From a virus, in the IMG/VR virus record IMGVR_UViG_3300010883_000279, positions 1 through 29,778 of that record: DNA of 29,778 nucleotides; one strand, given 5' to 3'. Shown in pieces: positions 2,306-10,531 of the stretch. Position numbers and translations under genes: made by a program. Position 1 is the first letter of the stretch; each line of letters begins with the position of its first letter. The notes beneath the pieces are model-generated. The model did not search any database. It was not told where the DNA came from and worked only from the letters and a program-made list of their open reading frames with translations.

Positions 2306-4240
2306 ATGCCTACCGAAACCTCCATAGACCCCTTCCGTCCTGAATCACTTGAGTCGTGGGTGATGAACAATTGTGAAAGCTGGCGCGACCACTACACAGC
2401 CAACTACGAACAGAAGTTTGACGAATACTATAGGACATGGAGAGGAATCTGGTCAGCCGCTGATAAGACTCGTGATAGCGAAAGAAGCAGACTTATTAGC
2501 CCTGCTACGCAACAAGCTGTTGAAAGTTCTGTAGCAGAGATTGAAGAAGCTACGTTTGGTCGTGGTAGGTGGTTTGACATTCAAGACGACGATCCTGATA
2601 ACATTGAGATAGTAAAGCTACGTGAGCAGCTCTACAACGATGCTAAAAAGAATAAGATTAGAAAGAACGTAGGCGAGTGTTTAATTAACGCTGCTGTGTT
2701 CGGCACAGGAATTGCAGAGATTGTATTAGACGAAACACGCGAGCGCTCTCCAGCTTCAGAGCCTCTCTTAGATGGCGAGTTAACCGCTGTAGGCGTTAAC
2801 ATACAAGATAGGACTATTGCTAAGACTGTTCCTGTTATGCCTCAGAACTTCCTCATAGACCCTGCAGCGACCTCTATAGAAGACGCGCTAGGAGTCGCTA
2901 TAGATCATTATGTTCCTACACATTCTGTAGAGCAGCTACAAACTAAGGGAACATATAAGAACGGGCCACTAGATAGCTATGCCTCTGAATTGGACATACA
3001 GGCTGACAAAGAACTAACTAGCATACACACTGAAGGCCAGACTAGAATAACTAAATACTTTGGTTTAGTTCCTAAGTACTTGCTAGACGCCTACATGGAA
3101 GAGGAGTCTGAAGGTGAGTTTGAAGAGATTGTAGACTCTGATGACAGTGAAACTGCTTCAGAGTACGTAGAAGCTATTGTAGTGATTGCTAATAAGTCTG
3201 TAGTTCTTAAGGCTGAAGAAAATCCTTATATGATGCAAGACAGGCCTGTAGTGGCTTTTCCATGGGATGTAGTACCTGGTAGGTTCTGGGGAAGAGGAGT
3301 ATGTGAAAAAGCATACAACTCTCAGAAGGCCTTAGACGCTGAGTTAAGAGGACGTACAGACGCTCTAGCCCTTACCATACACCCTATGATTGCAATGGAC
3401 GCTACAAGGCTTCCTAGGGGCTCTAGGCCTGAAGTTAGACCTGGTAAGGTGTTGCTGACTAACGGTAACCCTGCAGAGATTATACAGCCCTTTAACTTTG
3501 GCAACGTCTCACAGATTACCTTTGCACAGGCAGACGCTCTACAACGCATGGTACAGACTGCCACAGGTGCTGTAGACTCTGCAGGTATCGCAGGCAGCAT
3601 CAACGGAGAAGCTACTGCTGCAGGCATCTCTATGTCACTGGGTGCTATAATTAAAAGACAGAAACGTACATTGATTAATTTCCAAGAGAGTTTCTTAATT
3701 CCGATGGTAACTAAGATTGCTCACAGATACATGCAGTTTGAGCCTGAGCTATATCCCGCACAGGACTATACCTTTAACGCTACCAGCTCTCTAGGTATTA
3801 TTGCTCGTGAGTACGAAGTAACACAGCTTGTACAACTCCTTCAGACTATGGATCGAGAAAGTCCTGCTTACTTAGCGCTGACTAAGAGCATTGTAGACAA
3901 CATGAACTTGTCTAACAGAGAAGAGTTAATAAGCATTATAGACCAAGCCTCTCAAACGTCTCCAGAGCAGCAAGAAGCTATGGCGGCTCAACAGCAAGCT
4001 GCATTAGCTTTCCAAACTAGCCAGACTGCCGCACTCAACGCCACCGCTGCAGAGAGCGAAGCAAGAGCTGATAAGTATCGAACAGAAGCTGCTGCAATAC
4101 CTGTAGAACTACAACAATCAGCTATTAAGATTGCAACTTCAGACATTGATGGAGCCTCTAACAAGGAATTTAAAGAGCGTGCTGCTATTGGTAAGCTGAT
4201 GCTAGAAGAGCGTAAAGTGGCCTCTGGAGAGCGTAAGTAG
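2306..4240 (+). CDS. Portal protein (P22-type head-to-tail connector)
   Basis: This 644-residue protein sits immediately after the large terminase and matches the portal family of short-tailed phages. The N-terminal part has the usual LISPATQQAVESSVAEIEE segment and the GRGRWFDI motif. The central core includes AVFGTGIAEI and the FPWDVVPGRFWGRG segment. The C-terminal 130 residues are Q/A-rich and helical, fitting a barrel or crown. Twelve copies would form the ring at one capsid vertex through which DNA is packaged and ejected. The protein is somewhat shorter than P22 gp1 (725 residues) and longer than T7 gp8 (536). Family assignment is from recognised sequence pattern and gene order; I cannot separate P22-like from T7-like portals with certainty. 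Confidence 0.88.
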   Translation: MPTETSIDPFRPESLESWVMNNCESWRDHYTANYEQKFDEYYRTWRGIWSAADKTRDSERSRLISPATQQAVESSVAEIEEATFGRGRWFDIQDDDPDNIEIVKLREQLYNDAKKNKIRKNVGECLINAAVFGTGIAEIVLDETRERSPASEPLLDGELTAVGVNIQDRTIAKTVPVMPQNFLIDPAATSIEDALGVAIDHYVPTHSVEQLQTKGTYKNGPLDSYASELDIQADKELTSIHTEGQTRITKYFGLVPKYLLDAYMEEESEGEFEEIVDSDDSETASEYVEAIVVIANKSVVLKAEENPYMMQDRPVVAFPWDVVPGRFWGRGVCEKAYNSQKALDAELRGRTDALALTIHPMIAMDATRLPRGSRPEVRPGKVLLTNGNPAEIIQPFNFGNVSQITFAQADALQRMVQTATGAVDSAGIAGSINGEATAAGISMSLGAIIKRQKRTLINFQESFLIPMVTKIAHRYMQFEPELYPAQDYTFNATSSLGIIAREYEVTQLVQLLQTMDRESPAYLALTKSIVDNMNLSNREELISIIDQASQTSPEQQEAMAAQQQAALAFQTSQTAALNATAAESEARADKYRTEAAAIPVELQQSAIKIATSDIDGASNKEFKERAAIGKLMLEERKVASGERK

Positions 4241-4321: not shown

Positions 4322-4495
4322 ATGAAAGGCGTTAAACACTATAAAAGAGACGGCACTGCGTATACAGGCAACAGTCATAAGATGTCTGACGGCACTGTAC
4401 ACACAAACAAGTCTCACACTAAAACAAGCGTAAAGCTGTTCCACTTAAACGAACTATCAGCTAACGCTCAGAAGAAAGCTAAAAAGAAAAAGTAA
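4322..4495 (+). CDS. Small basic protein 1, conserved phage hypothetical
   Basis: This 57-residue lysine- and histidine-rich protein contains a repeated THK/SHK-type pattern: GNSHKMSDGTVHTNKSHTKT. It ends in a cluster of lysines. An upstream ATG at 4277 is in frame but lies inside the promoter, before the expected transcription start, so the ATG at 4322 was chosen. The AAAGG upstream is a weak ribosome binding site. It is the first of three very basic proteins produced from promoter P2, and its stop overlaps the start of the next by one base. Similar small proteins occur near head genes of other podoviruses as far as I recall, but no function is established. Nucleic-acid or capsid-interior binding is a guess from charge. 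Confidence 0.75.
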   Translation: MKGVKHYKRDGTAYTGNSHKMSDGTVHTNKSHTKTSVKLFHLNELSANAQKKAKKKK

Positions 4496-4806
4496 TGGCT
4501 AAAGCAAAAGACTCAAGACTAGCTAAAGCAGGCGTCAGTGGTTATAACAAACCAAAACGGACTCCTTCTCATCCTACAAAGTCTCACGTTGTCGTAGCTA
4601 AAGAAGGTGACAAGGTTAAGACCATTCGATTTGGGCAACCTGGTGTAAAGACTAACCAGACGGTAGGTCAACGAAAAGCGTTTGAGAGTCGTCACGCTAA
4701 GAATATAGCGAAAGGTAAAATGTCTGGTGCTTACTGGTCAGCAAAAACTAAATGGGCACCTTCTAAAACTATGTCACCTTCAACTAAGTGGAAGAAAGGG
4801 AGCTAA
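4495..4806 (+). CDS. Small basic protein 2, conserved phage hypothetical
   Basis: This 103-residue protein is rich in lysine and serine and nearly free of acidic residues. A recognisable core runs KRTPSHPTKSHVVVAKEG (about 21-38), then KTIRFGQPGV, then a RHAKNIAKGKMSGAYWSAK segment (about 66-84) that recurs in many phage genomes in my experience. There is no membrane segment and no catalytic motif. It overlaps the preceding stop by one base (TAATG) and is followed two bases later by a third basic protein. Virion-associated DNA-binding or structural roles would fit charge and position, but this is inference. Confidence 0.8.
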   Translation: MAKAKDSRLAKAGVSGYNKPKRTPSHPTKSHVVVAKEGDKVKTIRFGQPGVKTNQTVGQRKAFESRHAKNIAKGKMSGAYWSAKTKWAPSKTMSPSTKWKKGS

Positions 4807-4808
4807 TT

Positions 4809-4928
4809 ATGCCAAACGTCAAGGGTAAAAAATACGCATACACAACAGCTGGAAAAGCTAAAGCTAAAACAGCTGCTAAGAAACCAAGAACCAAGAGCAA
4901 GCCTAAGCCAAAATCAAGATCTTATTAA
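4809..4928 (+). CDS. Tiny lysine-rich protein 3 (39 residues)
   Basis: This open frame has 12 lysines, 2 arginines and no acidic residues in 39 positions. The second half (AAKKPRTKSKPKPKSRSY) has the alternating K-P/A pattern of histone H1 tails. It begins at ATG 4809, two bases after the preceding stop, whose end supplies GGGAGCTAATT as a ribosome binding site. It is below the usual ORF size cutoff. Spacing, ribosome binding site and compositional match to its two neighbours support it as a gene. The function is unknown; DNA condensation or a capsid-internal role is speculative. Confidence 0.7.
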   Translation: MPNVKGKKYAYTTAGKAKAKTAAKKPRTKSKPKPKSRSY

Positions 4929-4958: not shown

Positions 4959-5219
4959 ATGACGAAAGAAGAAGAAGTAGTTTTTAACAACTTGTTTGAG
5001 ATGTTTAACACAGAAGGCTGGCAACAGCTCGTGAGAGACTTTACAGACAGTGGAAACAATATAAACGTAGCAGAGCTTGTTAAAGACGAGAAAGACCTTC
5101 TCTTCAAGAAAGGGCAGCTTAATGTTATAGCTCAAGTAGTTAACCTTAAAGAGATAACGACTACTACCTATGACGGAATCATTGCAGACGAATTAGAAAC
5201 TGACAATGAGAATACTTAA
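4959..5219 (+). CDS. Conserved hypothetical protein near the head genes
   Basis: This acidic 86-residue protein is mostly helical in appearance (FNNLFEMFNTEGWQQLVRDF, then a charged segment, then LKDEKDLLFKKGQLNVIAQVVNL-like heptads). GGAG about ten bases before ATG 4959 is a good ribosome binding site. Its C-terminal codons overlap the next gene by 14 bases, which suggests translational coupling. Short proteins with the same GW...L and LVNLEE pattern are common beside capsid genes of podoviruses, but I know of no established function. A virion-assembly accessory role is inferred from position only. Confidence 0.75.
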   Translation: MTKEEEVVFNNLFEMFNTEGWQQLVRDFTDSGNNINVAELVKDEKDLLFKKGQLNVIAQVVNLKEITTTTYDGIIADELETDNENT

Positions 5220-5442
5220 TGACTTTAAATGCGCGAATGGACACGTTAGCGAGCTTTACAGAGAATCTCTTTGTAAGGCGGTTGATTGTCCTATCTGCGG
5301 ATTAGAAGCGGTACGTTTGATACCGGCAGTAAGAACCTATCTAGACCCCATCTCTGGTGACTTTCCAGGCGCTACCATGAAGTGGGCAAAGAATAGACAG
5401 GAGCAAATCAAGCAAGAGCGTAAGGATAGCGGAGAAAGCTAA
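5206..5442 (+). CDS. Zinc-ribbon-like small protein
   Basis: This 78-residue protein starts with an FmdB-like pattern: DFKCANGHVSE (6-16) with C9, then a CPIC knuckle (28-31), followed by RLIPAVRTYLD and SGDFPGATMKWAKNR. The cysteines could bind one zinc ion. The C-terminal third is a charged helix. The start overlaps the end of the preceding gene by 14 bases. Related small zinc-ribbon proteins are frequent in phage head regions with no known function. The domain call is reasonable, and any role in regulation or assembly is unproven. Confidence 0.75.
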   Translation: MRILNDFKCANGHVSELYRESLCKAVDCPICGLEAVRLIPAVRTYLDPISGDFPGATMKWAKNRQEQIKQERKDSGES

Positions 5443-5499: not shown

Positions 5500-6282
5500 A
5501 TGGCAACATTAATTGACGAGCCAGTAATAGAGACAAATGAAAACATCACAGACCTGTCTAAAGAGACGCAGGAAACTGCTAAATCTCTAGAGACCCAAGA
5601 AGCACAGGTTGACGAACTTCCTGAGAAGTATCAAGGAAAGAGTCAAGCAGAAATCGTTAGAATGCACCAGGAAGCTGAAAAGCTAATTGGTAAGCAGTCT
5701 GGTGAGGTTGGCGAGCTTCGTAGAGTTGTAGATGATTTTATTCTCCAGAGCAAGTCACCAACACAAGCGCAGGAACCAGCTAAAGAAATTGACTTCTTTG
5801 AGAATCCCAAAGACGCAGTTAACCAAGCGGTACAGAATCATCCAGACGTAGTAGAAGCGCGTAATGCTGCACAGAGCTTTAAAAAGCAAACAGCTATCGC
5901 TCAACTTCAAACACGCCACCCAGACATGGCAGACATCTTACAAGACTCTAAGTTTCAAGAGTGGGTTAAGGGATCTAAAGTGAGACAGGAGATGCTTCGC
6001 CAAGCAGACATAGCAATGGACTACGAAATTGCTGACGAGATATTCACTAGTTGGAAAGAACGTCAGAACCTAGTTAAACAAACAGTCCGAAGTGAAACTG
6101 CAAGCCGTAAGAAAACTGTCAACCAAGCCTCCACAGGGAGTGCTAATGGTAGTGCGGAACAATCAAATAAGAAAGTCTATCGAAGAGCTGACATTATTAA
6201 ACTAATGCAAACCGACCCAGACAGATACGAAGCCTTGCAACCAGAACTTATGCAGGCCTACTCAGATGGGAGGGTTCGATAA
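5500..6282 (+). CDS. Probable scaffolding protein
   Basis: This 260-residue, highly charged, mostly helical protein lies directly before the major capsid gene, the classic place of a scaffold. The N-terminal 50 residues are acidic and Q/T-rich. Residues 50-80 contain a YQGKSQAEIVRMHQEAEKLI helix seen in podovirus scaffolds. The middle has LQTRHPDMADILQDSKFQEWV, and the C-terminus is basic (KVYRRADIIKLMQ...). Scaffolds guide assembly of the HK97-fold coat into proheads and leave before DNA entry. CGGAG upstream of ATG 5500 is a good ribosome binding site. There is no protease domain. Confidence is high from order and composition. Confidence 0.85.
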   Translation: MATLIDEPVIETNENITDLSKETQETAKSLETQEAQVDELPEKYQGKSQAEIVRMHQEAEKLIGKQSGEVGELRRVVDDFILQSKSPTQAQEPAKEIDFFENPKDAVNQAVQNHPDVVEARNAAQSFKKQTAIAQLQTRHPDMADILQDSKFQEWVKGSKVRQEMLRQADIAMDYEIADEIFTSWKERQNLVKQTVRSETASRKKTVNQASTGSANGSAEQSNKKVYRRADIIKLMQTDPDRYEALQPELMQAYSDGRVR

Positions 6283-6304: not shown

Positions 6305-7258
6305 ATGACTGATTCAACTTATCCCGCAACAGGTGGCTTTACAGGCACTACAGAAGCCGCCAGCTTTATTCCAGAGATCTGGAGTGATGAGATTATAGCA
6401 GCCTATAAGAGCAATCTTGTACAAGCTAACCTTGTTAAGAAAATGTCTATGGTAGGAAAGAAAGGCGATACAATTTATATCCCTACTCCTACTCGTGGCG
6501 ATGCTCACGCTAAGACACAGAACGGTGCTGTAACTGTACAAGGAAATGCCGAAGCAACTACTACAGTTCTTGTAGACAAGCACTATGAATACTCTAAATT
6601 GATTGAAGACCTTGCTGATATTCAAGCTCTTTCATCTATGCGTCAGTTCTACACTAGCGACGCAGGCTATGCTTTAGGTAAGCAAGTTGATAGCGACTTG
6701 TTCCAGCTAGGGCTAGACTTTGGAGACAGCAACGGAGCTGATTGGGTTCACTCTAACAGCTACTTCGTTGACGCTTCTAACGGTCTCTCAGCTTACGCTA
6801 TTGACACTGTTGTTGCTGCAGACGTTGTAACCGACGCAGCTTTCAGAGGCTTGATTAAGCTAATGGACGACCAAGACGTGCCTATGGATAACCGATCATG
6901 GACTATCCCACCTTCAGTACGACAAACCCTAATGGGCATTGACCGATATGTAAGCTCCGACTTCGTATCTGGACAACCTGTCTCTAACGGGCTAATCGGT
7001 AACTTGTACGGTGTAGACATCTATGTATCGTCTAATGTGCCTATAATCGAAACTGCTTCTGATAACTCAGCTGGCGGTGCTGTTCGTGGTTCTATCTTCC
7101 AACATAAAGATACCAGTGTACTTGTAGAGCAAAGCGGCATTAGATCGCAAACTCAGTACAAGCAAGAATGGTTAGGTGACCTGTTCACCGCTGATACCAT
7201 CTACGGTGTTAAGAATGTTCGCCCTGAAAGCGGCTTCGTTCTCGCTGTAAATACGTAA
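6305..7258 (+). CDS. Major capsid protein
   Basis: This 317-residue protein builds the icosahedral shell. It carries the usual coat-protein opening, FIPEIWSDEIIAAYKSNLVQ (about residues 21-40), then GKKGDTIYIPTP, a KHYEYSKLIED segment typical of the spine/E-loop region, and a final KNVRPESGFVLAV strand. These are patterns of HK97-fold coat proteins of short-tailed phages. There is no apparent N-terminal delta domain or protease cleavage extension. TTGGAG precedes ATG 6305, and a strong intrinsic terminator follows 9 bases after the stop, as expected for the most abundant virion protein. Confidence 0.92.
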   Translation: MTDSTYPATGGFTGTTEAASFIPEIWSDEIIAAYKSNLVQANLVKKMSMVGKKGDTIYIPTPTRGDAHAKTQNGAVTVQGNAEATTTVLVDKHYEYSKLIEDLADIQALSSMRQFYTSDAGYALGKQVDSDLFQLGLDFGDSNGADWVHSNSYFVDASNGLSAYAIDTVVAADVVTDAAFRGLIKLMDDQDVPMDNRSWTIPPSVRQTLMGIDRYVSSDFVSGQPVSNGLIGNLYGVDIYVSSNVPIIETASDNSAGGAVRGSIFQHKDTSVLVEQSGIRSQTQYKQEWLGDLFTADTIYGVKNVRPESGFVLAVNT

Positions 7259-7267
7259 GACCTAAGA

Positions 7268-7301
7268 GCTAGGGAGTCTTCACAGGCTCCCTAGCCTTTT
7301 T
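7268..7301 (+). terminator. Intrinsic terminator after the capsid gene
   Basis: A perfect nine-base-pair stem, GCTAGGGAG (7268-7276) and CTCCCTAGC (7287-7295), encloses a ten-base loop and is followed by CTTTTT. This is a textbook Rho-independent terminator on the plus strand. It separates the head genes from the fibre/tail genes, so those need read-through or a separate promoter. Confidence 0.93.
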
Positions 7302-7360: not shown

Positions 7361-10144
7361 ATGTCCTCATATTCTAAAACGGTAGACTTTGCCGCTAAAG
7401 ACTCTCTCCCGTCTGGGAACGCTTCTAAAGTTGTAAGTGGTACAGAGCTTAATACCGAATTCTCTAACATTGAAACTGCAGTAAACTCTAAAGCTAACAC
7501 AGCTTCGCCAACCTTTACAGGCACTGCTACAATCCCCGCTGTAGACATTAACGCAGGTAATATAGACGGCACAGCTATAGGAGCTAGTTCGGCTTCTACA
7601 GCCTTATTTACTACTGTAGATGCTACAGGGGTTATTTCAGGATCTACTATTGAGGCTGATGGGGACACCTCTGCAGGCGACAACGCTGCAATGGGCTACA
7701 CAGCCGCAGAAGGCTTAATCCTAACTGGTCAAGGCTCTACTAACGATGTTACTATTAAGAATGACGCTGACGCTGATGTTCTAAAGATTCCTACTGGGAC
7801 TACTAATGTTAATGTTGTAGGCGCTGTTGGAGCAGGGACATTAACGGCTGGTTCAGGATCTATTACAGACTCTTCAGGGGCTATTAGCTTTGGTAATGAA
7901 AACCTAAGCACTTCAGGTACGTTGGGCGCTGGAGCCATTACAGGAACTTCGCTTGTCATAGGAAGCGCAACGGTCAATGAGGCGGCCCTTGAGATACTAG
8001 ACGGCGCTACAATTACCACAGCAGAGCTAAACATCTTAGATGGTGTTACCTCTACAGCGGCTGAGATAAACATCTTAGACGGCGTTACAGCGACGGCCTC
8101 AGAGCTTAATGCTTTAGACGGAATTACAGCTACCGTGGCTGAACTTAACATTCTAGACGGAGTAACCGCTACAGCGACTGAGCTGAACTTAATAGATGGT
8201 GTGACGTCTACAACTGATGAACTAAACATCCTTGATGGTGTAACGTCTACAGCTGCAGAGCTAAACATCTTAGATGGTGTGACGTCTACAGCTGCAGAAC
8301 TAAACATCCTCGACGGCGTAACGTCTACAGCTGCAGAACTAAACATCCTCGATGGTGTTACTTCTACAGCGACTGAGCTAAACTTATTAGACGGCGTTAC
8401 TTCTACAACTGATGAACTAAACATCTTAGATGGTGTGACGTCTACAGCGACTGAGTTGAACTTATTAGACGGCGTTACTTCCACAACTGCAGAGCTAAAC
8501 TTATTAGACGGTGTTACTTCTACAACCGCAGAGCTTAATTACACAGACGGCGTGACCAGTGCTATACAGACTCAGCTTAACACTAAGGCTCCCCTGGCTG
8601 ATCCTAACTTTACAGGAACTCTAGAAGTAGGTACTTTAGACGCCGCTTCAGGCTCAATTACCGACTCCTCTGGGGCTATATCATTCGGTAATGAGAATCT
8701 GAGTACTACAGGCACTTTAGACGCTGGATCACTACAAACAGCAACCGCTGGAACCTCTAATTTCCGCGCAGGAGTCAACGCAGGTAATAGCATTGCCAGC
8801 GGCGGTACTTATAATACTGTGGTGGGGGATGAGGCGGGAACTGCGATTAGTACTGGCGATAGGAACGTAGCAGTAGGTTATGACGCAGGTAAAGAAATAA
8901 CCACCGCCGCAAGTAATACTTTGGTGGGCGCGCATTCCGGCGATGCATTAAACACAGGAAACAATAACGTTGCTCTGGGCTATGCTACTTTAAGTGCTGA
9001 CACTAAAGGCGATAGAAACGTAGCCGTTGGCTCGCTCGCCCTACAAAATCAAAACTTTACTTCAACTGAGGATAGTTACAATATAGCGGTAGGGTATGGC
9101 GCAGGGAATGCTATCACTACAGGCACAAATAATACTTTGGTAGGGGGTCTTGCAGGTGATGTTCTTACTACAGGAAACAGCAACGTTGCTGTGGGTCTTC
9201 ATACTTTAGGTACTGACACTAACGGCGATAGAAACGTAGCCGTTGGCGTACTCGCCCTACAAAATCAAAACTTTACTTCAAGTACCGATAGTTATAACGT
9301 CGGGGTAGGGTATAACGCAGGGAATGATCTCACCACAGGCCTTAACAATACCCTTGTTGGCGGCCTCGCAGGCGATGCTCTTACAGACGCTGATTCTAAT
9401 GTTGCCGTAGGTTATGGTACTTTAAGTTCTGACACTTTAGGGAGCAGAAGCGTAGCTATAGGGAGGAGTGCTTTAGCAGCTCAAAACCTCACTTCTGCTA
9501 CCAATGTTTATAACACTGCAATGGGTTATAACGCAGGAACTGCAGTCTCGACAGGCCTTCATAATACCCTTGTTGGTGGCCGTACAGCTGATGCACTTAC
9601 CACGGGAAGTTTTAATGTCATTTTTGGAGGCCTAAGCGATTCCACGGCTGTCGATTCTGAAAAAGCGCAAGGCTTTGGCTATAATGTTTCATGTGCAGCA
9701 GGTTATACAACAATAGGTAGTGGTGCTGATGACATTAGAGCGGCACATGGCAATGTTACATGGGCAACAGTCTCTGATGAACGCTACAAGAAAGACATTG
9801 TAGATTCTACAGCAGGTTTAAGCTTTATTAATGCTTTGCAGCCTCGCACTTGGCAGTACAAAACCCTTGGCGAACTGCCTGAAACCTTTAACGCCTATGA
9901 AGCCGACTCGACCAAGGTCTTTAAAAACTCGGATACGAACCACGGGTTTATAGCTCAAGAAGTCAAAGCGGCTATAGATGCTGACAGTAGCATTAAAGAT
10001 GGCTTTAGACTTTGGGACGATAGAGATGATGGCTCTCAGGAAGTAGCAGAGGCCGCATTAATACCTGTACTAACCAAAGCAATTCAAGAGCTATCTGCAC
10101 AAGTAGAAGCATTAACCGCAAGAATAGAAACCTTAGAAGGGTAA
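7361..10144 (+). CDS. Tail fibre/spike with repeat shaft and S74 chaperone domain
   Basis: This 927-residue receptor-binding protein is modular. Residues 1-60 (YSKTVDFAAKDSLPSGNA) form a virion-attachment-like domain. About 15 thirteen-residue repeats of the ELNILDGVTSTTA type fill residues 208-400. GSITDSSGAISFGNENLS occurs on both sides of that array. Residues 480-770 hold NVAVG/NTLVGG repeats like the beta-roll of YadA-type heads. The C-terminus from S805 (SDERYKKDI) is a peptidase S74 intramolecular chaperone, with LQPRTWQYK and HGFIAQEV motifs and a final coiled coil. S74 domains trimerise the fibre and then usually cleave themselves off at the conserved serine. AGGTG before ATG 7361 is the ribosome binding site. 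Confidence 0.9.
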   Translation: MSSYSKTVDFAAKDSLPSGNASKVVSGTELNTEFSNIETAVNSKANTASPTFTGTATIPAVDINAGNIDGTAIGASSASTALFTTVDATGVISGSTIEADGDTSAGDNAAMGYTAAEGLILTGQGSTNDVTIKNDADADVLKIPTGTTNVNVVGAVGAGTLTAGSGSITDSSGAISFGNENLSTSGTLGAGAITGTSLVIGSATVNEAALEILDGATITTAELNILDGVTSTAAEINILDGVTATASELNALDGITATVAELNILDGVTATATELNLIDGVTSTTDELNILDGVTSTAAELNILDGVTSTAAELNILDGVTSTAAELNILDGVTSTATELNLLDGVTSTTDELNILDGVTSTATELNLLDGVTSTTAELNLLDGVTSTTAELNYTDGVTSAIQTQLNTKAPLADPNFTGTLEVGTLDAASGSITDSSGAISFGNENLSTTGTLDAGSLQTATAGTSNFRAGVNAGNSIASGGTYNTVVGDEAGTAISTGDRNVAVGYDAGKEITTAASNTLVGAHSGDALNTGNNNVALGYATLSADTKGDRNVAVGSLALQNQNFTSTEDSYNIAVGYGAGNAITTGTNNTLVGGLAGDVLTTGNSNVAVGLHTLGTDTNGDRNVAVGVLALQNQNFTSSTDSYNVGVGYNAGNDLTTGLNNTLVGGLAGDALTDADSNVAVGYGTLSSDTLGSRSVAIGRSALAAQNLTSATNVYNTAMGYNAGTAVSTGLHNTLVGGRTADALTTGSFNVIFGGLSDSTAVDSEKAQGFGYNVSCAAGYTTIGSGADDIRAAHGNVTWATVSDERYKKDIVDSTAGLSFINALQPRTWQYKTLGELPETFNAYEADSTKVFKNSDTNHGFIAQEVKAAIDADSSIKDGFRLWDDRDDGSQEVAEAALIPVLTKAIQELSAQVEALTARIETLEG
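7985..8561 (+). repeat. Tandem 39-bp coding repeat in the fibre gene (about 15 units)
   Basis: Consecutive 39-base units encode thirteen-residue repeats of the form ELN(I/L)LDGVTST(A/T)(A/T/D). Central units (about 8215-8350) are nearly identical in DNA, for example GTCTACAGCTGCAGA recurring, while outer units differ. The array stays in frame, so changes in unit number lengthen or shorten the fibre shaft without a frameshift. Confidence 0.9.
8911..9620 (+). repeat. Long 216-220-bp coding repeats in the fibre beta-roll region
   Basis: Units of roughly 72 residues begin with NTLVG and contain two NVAVG strands and a LALQNQNFTS segment. The two middle copies share long, almost identical DNA from about 9008 and about 9224 (216 bases apart), while the first and last copies are more diverged. 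This suggests recent duplication or homogenisation of that part of the fibre. Confidence 0.8.
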
Positions 10145-10150
10145 CTGATT

Positions 10151-10531
10151 ATGAATAAAGATTATGAAGAAGCTCTAGCGGAAGAAGAAGAAGCTCTAGC
10201 GGAAGAAGAAGAAGCTGTAGTGGAAGAAGAAGAAGCTGTAGTGGAAGAAGAAGCTCTAGCGGAAGAAGAAGCTGTAGTGGAACTCACAATAAAAGAACGT
10301 ACAGAAGAAGAAAAAGCAGAAATGTATTCAGCCATGCTGGGCAGTGTTAGCGTTATTACAAGTGCCCTAGATGGTGACAATGATTTCTGTTCTGAGATGA
10401 CAGTTGAAGAAGTTAAAGAACGTGTTATGAGAAGTTCAGGATACCTATCAAGTGGCGTAGCACTGGATGATTGGGGTAGTGAAGATATGTCCACCATCAT
10501 TGCCGCTATTACAGAAGCAGAAGGCGCATGA
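10151..10531 (+). CDS. Acidic repeat protein of unknown function
   Basis: This 126-residue protein begins with about 40 residues made almost only of E, A, L and V, in heptad then hexad units (EALAEEE, EAVVEEE, EAVVEE). It continues with a folded-looking acidic domain (TEEEKAEMYSAMLGS... MTVEEVKERVMRSSGYLSS... DMSTIIAAITEAEGA). The net charge is strongly negative. The start ATG 10151 lies six bases after the fibre stop, with GAAGGG just upstream. The end overlaps the next gene by four bases (ATGA). The C-terminal part may be the functional domain, with the repeat as a spacer or coil. Possible roles include fibre assembly, DNA mimicry or a lysis accessory; none is supported directly. Confidence 0.75.
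   Translation: MNKDYEEALAEEEEALAEEEEAVVEEEEAVVEEEALAEEEAVVELTIKERTEEEKAEMYSAMLGSVSVITSALDGDNDFCSEMTVEEVKERVMRSSGYLSSGVALDDWGSEDMSTIIAAITEAEGA
10166..10282 (+). repeat. Acidic heptad/hexad coding repeat
   Basis: Units of 21 and then 18 bases, GAAGCTCTAGCGGAAGAAGA or the variant with GTAGTG, encode EALAEE(E) or EAVVEE(E). Unit lengths are 21, 21, 21, 18, 18, then a partial copy. The GAA runs make it prone to slippage while remaining in frame. Confidence 0.85.

Follow-up and report, generated by a model that had tools for sequence, protein, structure and literature searches.

Between the portal and scaffold genes of the virus analysed here lie three small, very basic genes, gp1, gp2 and gp3, and the slot that they fill is a 'basic island' whose small proteins come from many unrelated families and replace one another, with position and positive charge conserved. 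What would such proteins be doing? We lean slightly towards the view that the trio are accessory proteins of the head interior, placed at or near the portal and most likely contacting packaged DNA. The head interior near the portal is proposed because slot, charge, direction and company are kept and because the gp2 domain forms part of portal, Mu-F and prohead-protease proteins, and DNA is proposed as the partner because the proteins are lysine-rich. Small basic ORFs in marine phages number in the hundreds, so far unnamed and without an assigned function. From the slot rule (a place between portal and scaffold/capsid, on either side of the capsid promoter), together with the fusions and the reports of virion proteins, such ORFs gain a single role that can be put to the test, that of head-interior proteins.

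The trio and its transcription unit

The window, meaning the whole stretch of DNA analysed, is a viral record 29,778 bases long, and its + strand reads small terminase, endopeptidase-like ORF, large terminase, portal, gp1–gp3, o86, o78, scaffold, capsid protein and terminator (Table 1). A sequence-only reading of this DNA had described three genes of 57, 103 and 39 codons packed end to end at 4322–4928 between portal and scaffold. The reading frames were confirmed and the trio is so placed, with the added detail that o86 and o78 intervene before the scaffold gene. gp1 and gp2 meet at TAATG, in which one base is common to stop and start.

Table 1. Features of the window referred to in the text
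Feature	Positions	Strand	Description
P1	37..65	+	Late promoter, P2's twin; upstream of the small-terminase gene
Portal protein	2306..4240	+	Upstream border of the slot; SU10_portal 1.9e-22; phrog_1216
P2	4260..4288	+	Predicted capsid-operon promoter; TTGACT-17-TATACT, sigma-70-like
gp1	4322..4495	+	57 aa, K/H-rich basic protein
gp2	4495..4806	+	103 aa, basic, phrog_7595; conserved domain at about residues 14-87 (nt 4534-4755)
gp3	4809..4928	+	39 aa, K/A/P-rich basic peptide
o86	4959..5219	+	Acidic, pI 4.1; in relatives the first gene 3' of the promoter
o78	5206..5442	+	Possible zinc-ribbon; sub-threshold Pfam Zn_ribbon_8 (15.2 bits vs cut-off 34.4)
Scaffold protein	5500..6282	+	phrog_19777 head scaffolding, E 1.2e-4; position
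Major capsid protein	6305..7258	+	Phage_capsid_2 5.2e-9; phrog_267
Intrinsic terminator	7268..7295	+	Predicted hairpin closing the capsid operon

The extreme basicity claimed for the trio holds: over the 32 listed genes of the window, gp1–gp3 are the top three in net charge per residue and they are adjacent, for which the chance probability is ~0.006. Counts of K+R against D+E are 14/3 in gp1, 25/4 in gp2 and 14/0 in gp3, with pI values of 10.3, 10.9 and 10.8, respectively. The 39-residue product thus has its 14 basic and no acidic residues as described, a composition (at least 14 K/R, no D/E) met in 0 of 200,000 random 39-residue draws from six head/tail proteins of the window. It had been likened to a histone H1 tail, a likeness of K/A/P composition only; homology to histone H1 or HU-like nucleoid proteins was rejected, as gp3 has no Pfam or NCBIfam match to such a family. 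But are such short frames real? The rate pN was below pS in 406/406 pairs for gp2, 45/45 for gp3 and 298/300 for gp1, and the median dN/dS over unsaturated pairs was 0.077 (25 pairs), 0.347 (26) and 0.105 (54) in the same order. Because this synonymous bias appears in nearly all pairs, gp1, gp2 and gp3 are genuine protein-coding genes under purifying selection. Elsewhere in the window, a fibre-like protein (7361–10144) has many copies of a ELNILDGVTSTA repeat and, at its C-terminus, a Peptidase_S74 chaperone domain; the gene directly 3' of it (10151–10531) codes for a strongly acidic product of 126 aa, 40 of them D/E and 7 K/R, in which EEEEALAEEEE repeats occur.

The promoter is a more complicated matter. 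A strong promoter ahead of the trio had been claimed, and the sigma-70-like P2 bears this out, with 10 of 12 consensus bases and TG before the -10. The pattern TTGAC-N17-19-TATAMT occurs twice in the window, at P1 and P2, against 0.15 expected; over 30 bases, the spacer among them, the two sites are nearly identical. The window ORFs inspected showed no gene for a phage RNA polymerase. The same reading took the promoter to be dedicated to the trio, which the relatives (14 loci, defined below) contradict: the exact pattern stands in the slot of 12 of them, always 3' of the basic island and just 5' of the acidic o86, ahead of scaffold and capsid. L072 has an 11-of-12 site at the same place, and among the 14 slots scanned only that of L039 had no match. 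P2-like sites also precede terS in L029, L036, L051 and L071. Because the relatives have it after the island and before o86-scaffold-capsid, P2 is, as far as sequence comparison can tell, the promoter of o86-o78-scaffold-capsid and not specific to the trio. Only in this genome does the trio lie downstream of P2, whereas in the relatives the island is upstream of the promoter and would be transcribed by read-through from portal. Behind the capsid gene of the window stands a terminator-like hairpin, which 10 of the 12 relatives tested also have there (L064 and L162 lack it), and none was found inside the slot of the window or of the relatives tested. From the positions of promoter and terminator, the trio of the window is predicted to join the capsid transcript. 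High output is likely because that transcript is shared, not because of a promoter of the trio's own.

The basic slot in relatives and beyond

Scans of viral contigs by gp2 and by gp1 gave at least 80 loci each. Relatives were taken as the 14 distinct loci with the same portal (>50% identity) and scaffold (>40%) and a readable slot; L002, L083 and L084, which are the window itself or near-identical to it, were left out. gp2 sits in the slot of 13/14 relatives (L072 has it after the capsid gene) and gp1 in that of 2/14 (L032, L132), a presence that is partly by construction, the relatives having been fetched with gp2 or gp1, while position and company are not. Absence of the third frame from relatives had been named as a point that would count against the trio; a gp3-like frame is found in the slot of 10/14 (not in L032, L042, L072 or L132). 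The rest of the slot is taken up by other small basic families: famA (GLYANIHAKRKRI...), famB (...VWPSAYASG...), DUF5872-like proteins, famD (...GQWSARKAQ...) and others, the letters being labels coined in this analysis.

How strict is the preference for charge? Among ATG-initiated ORFs of 30–120 aa, taken longest first and without overlap in the same 15 loci (window included), net charge exceeded 0.15 per residue in 44/46 slot ORFs versus 3/72 outside (Fisher 3e-26), and in 30/32 slot ORFs when gp2 is set aside; these rows are not independent (L041/L048 and L029/L051 are close) and a few ORFs may be spurious (e.g. L036:5298). Other kinds of gene occur there too. A PP-loop/QueC-like gene, with QueC at the Pfam cut-off, separates the basic genes from the capsid promoter at L029:5567-6244 and L051:5759-6448. 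Directly 3' of portal, often overlapping gp2 out of frame, a coiled-coil-like ORF of ~45–68 aa is present in L023, L028, L029, L032, L033, L036, L039, L041, L042, L048, L051, L064, L072 and L132, and absent in the window.

A neighbourhood survey of homologues, suggested in the sequence-only reading, was run beyond these relatives; gp2 recurs beside portal, scaffold and capsid genes, and counter-examples exist. The phages ICP1, P-HS2 and KBS-S-2A are not related to that of the window, and they too have the gp2 domain between portal/minor head protein and scaffold/capsid. The order in P-HS2 is Mu-F protein, several small basic ORFs, gp2, scaffold-like protein and capsid protein, and KBS-S-2A follows it with annotated minor head and coat proteins. 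Another island family lies within 2 kb of gp2 in 55 of the 80 best loci listed, where all 89 such ORFs are on the same strand and none is farther away; the other 25 of these 80 have no other island family nearby. famA together with DUF6321 is found between the scaffold and capsid genes of pelagiphage HTVC031P and directly 3' of the capsid gene in P-SCSP1d. A PHROG tally of the neighbours at 41 other loci covered 143 of 147 ORFs, leaving out L003:4358-4840:-, L003:5285-5680:+, L004:4337-4840:- and L049:4202-4801:-, which overlap gp2 or are antisense to it. With one ORF free to match more than one family, the commonest matches were portal (6 and 3), large terminase (6) and major head protein (5 and 4), followed by two island families (5 and 4) and tail proteins, with DNA polymerase, helicase and groEL at 2 each. 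The counter-examples are cobaviruses, HMO-2011-type phages, S-EIV1 and the contigs L088 and L151, where gp2 closes the late region or neighbours lysis-type genes; it also precedes terL in L071, besides its place after the capsid gene in L072. In L088 and L151 the gp1-gp2 pair, with its overlapping stop and start, recurs in an unrelated setting, and therefore moves as a unit.

The gp2 domain and its fusions

gp2 matches phrog_7595 (E 1.4e-31; residues 2-87 against 2-96 of the 96 profile positions) and differs from it by an extra C-terminal tail of ~16 residues, present in a subset of homologues. Across 61 sequences K29, V33, F46, G47, R66, H67, W81 and W87 are invariant. An AlphaFold2 model built on this 61-sequence alignment (pLDDT 84.2, pTM 0.73) predicts a beta-hairpin followed by three helices, with residues 14-87 well predicted and the tail lower. 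With 31 close homologues as input, modelling gave a low-quality result (pLDDT 66), and the PDB search based on it was uninformative. The good model had no PDB fold match at E<=0.001 and none at Z>=2 among 196 chains, a DNA-binding fold was not found in these PDB searches, and the best match of gp2 to the sequences of solved structures reached only E 0.097. Among predicted viral structures, 13 match the model at E<=0.001, including ICP1 ORF125 and XkdF-named, ChaB-named and 1393-aa proteins; a protein of the Marseillevirus group is a weaker match (probability 0.96, E 0.17). By Pfam, gp1 and gp3 have no family match and gp2 has nothing above the cut-off, and no effector-like domain was found in gp1–gp3 in Pfam, NCBIfam or PHROGs.

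What company does the domain keep inside larger proteins? CL131 gp012 (L339:8800-12981), 1393 aa and hence of the same length as the structural match, consists of Phage_portal_3 (60-419), the gp2 domain (534-604; domain i-E 3e-13), InPase (631-752) and Phage_Mu_F (991-1103). The order portal, gp2 domain, InPase is seen again in the contigs L343, close to CL131, and L347, 59% identical over the queried stretch. The domain is attached to a Peptidase_S78_2 (XkdF) prohead protease as well, on its C-terminal side in ICP1 ORF125 and on its N-terminal side in Aeromonas phages.

Judged by its sequence relatives, the gp2 domain is all-viral. A cellular origin was considered and rejected: the 44 relatives in genome_contigs nearly all have MAG, bin or single-cell titles and are probably phage contigs. 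No gp2 relatives were found on plasmids. Kinship of gp2 with DUF6321 through a common R-x-SF-x-AR motif was likewise ruled out (hhalign probability 0.8 of 100; no Pfam match).

Function, alternatives and known systems

Do proteins of this kind reach the virion? CL131 ORF012 is reported among 23 virion proteins by LC-MS/MS, a detection at the level of the fusion protein (PMC6293099). S-CREM2 gp137, which ends in DUF6321, is reported with 4 unique peptides and 4.1% coverage in the virion proteome. S-SCSM1_29 combines famB and DUF6321, with a DUF5872-like stretch recognised by eye only, and carries the GenBank label 'virion protein', its genome being one for which a virion proteome exists; the 45 detected proteins reported in that study suggest that the label reflects actual detection. 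The virion reports cover these three proteins, with gp1 and gp3 not among them. Cryo-EM of P-SCSP1u is reported to show a shell of capsid protein only, and a sibling phage has famA and DUF6321 beside its capsid gene (PMC10575957), which counts against a shell role for island proteins. The excerpts of the P-SS2 and P-SSP7 proteomics contain nothing on island-type proteins. Our literature search found no published account of small lysine-rich phage head proteins and no mention of DUF6321, and for 'GC0119' unrelated papers only.

In the mechanism that we favour, basic-island proteins would be produced together with those of the capsid and taken up into the procapsid; their place of action would be the head interior, at or close to the portal, where they would most likely touch packaged DNA and perhaps also contact the acidic scaffold or o86, and they would help packaging, DNA organisation or ejection. 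For the stand-alone proteins we infer the head location, the DNA contact and the effect on packaging or ejection; gp1 and gp3 would, by association, share the role. Of the original idea of DNA-condensing or capsid-internal proteins, it is the head-interior role that gains support, indirectly, for gp2 by the protease and portal/Mu-F fusions and for the group by slot and charge.

Could the island proteins instead serve assembly only, as basic partners of the acidic scaffold, the protease or the capsid protein, working in the procapsid and then exiting or being broken down as it matures? Fusion of the gp2 domain to prohead proteases at either end would suit this, as would the predicted transcript that the trio has in common with o86, o78, scaffold and capsid protein. 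However, mature particles are reported to contain the CL131 fusion protein (PMC6293099), and the module-bearing S-SCSM1_29 and S-CREM2 gp137 are labelled or reported as virion proteins, so that we regard a purely assembly-bound role as unlikely, if deserving serious thought. The slot might also be a moron hot spot that takes unrelated small genes, some of them host-takeover or nucleic-acid-binding effectors produced during infection, with no common head function. Families do turn over fast there, the PP-loop/QueC-like gene is inserted in L029 and L051, and SPP1 ORFs 8-10 are reported to stand between gp7 and the gene for the scaffold, interrupting the order there (PMC6316719). Yet 44/46 basic ORFs are not expected of a neutral hot spot, the same families recur in each other's company and the gp2 domain is an integral part of portal and protease proteins; we hold this explanation to be rather improbable. 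A highly improbable one is that the proteins are carried in the virion and ejected with the DNA, binding host nucleic acid or blocking host functions. Basic charge, small size and the link to Mu-F proteins would agree with it, and the SPP1 Mu-F protein gp7, brought inside the procapsid via the portal, is reported to aid the start of infection (PMC6316719), but the searches of Pfam, NCBIfam and PHROGs gave no effector-like domain.

A broader proposal, which we put forward as a long shot, is that tailed phages and eukaryotic giant viruses draw on a shared pool of interchangeable small basic modules for nucleic acid in the virion interior, a counterpart of protamines, in which charge, slot and dosage would be selected and not sequence; the modules would exist as separate genes or be strung together or fused to portal, Mu-F or prohead protease. 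If the head-interior role of the island holds, phages carry exchangeable DNA-contacting head proteins in which charge matters above sequence, and some of the modules are common with giant viruses. The head-interior reading also offers a lead on the function of phrog_7595, the ICP1 capsid-protease domain, DUF6321 and DUF5872.

Among known systems, SPP1 gp7 (Mu-F) is reported to be coded beside the portal gene, to be present in few copies inside the head, to be directed by the portal into the interior of the procapsid and to support the start of infection, and the title of a cited SPP1 work describes it as DNA-binding (PMC6316719). The trio genes likewise lie between portal and scaffold, and CL131 fuses the gp2 domain to portal and Mu-F; in contrast to gp7, gp1–gp3 have no Mu-F domain by Pfam and are far smaller and more basic. 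In ICP1 and Aeromonas phages the XkdF-type protease contains the gp2 domain and its gene stands between those of portal and scaffold/capsid, whereas gp2 is stand-alone and lacks the Peptidase_S78_2 of its fused relatives. T4-type internal head proteins carry a capsid-targeting sequence that is cut by the prohead protease. Cyanomyovirus proteins of the gp114 type (S-SCSM1_29, syn9 gp114) string together island-type modules, famB and DUF6321, but do so in a single protein of 440–530 aa instead of separate small genes, and are without gp1, gp2 and gp3 by profile. As to giant viruses, an island ORF of relative L032 matches DUF5872 above the cut-off (29.5 vs 27.5 bits), and the gp2 hairpin of L348:2461-4359 and L349:3344-4822 matches DUF5754 below it (21.7 and 20 vs 27.4 bits), with no Pfam match of either family to gp2 itself. 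Both DUF5872 and DUF5754 are listed together in the reported genome of a haptophyte virus (PMC12085832).
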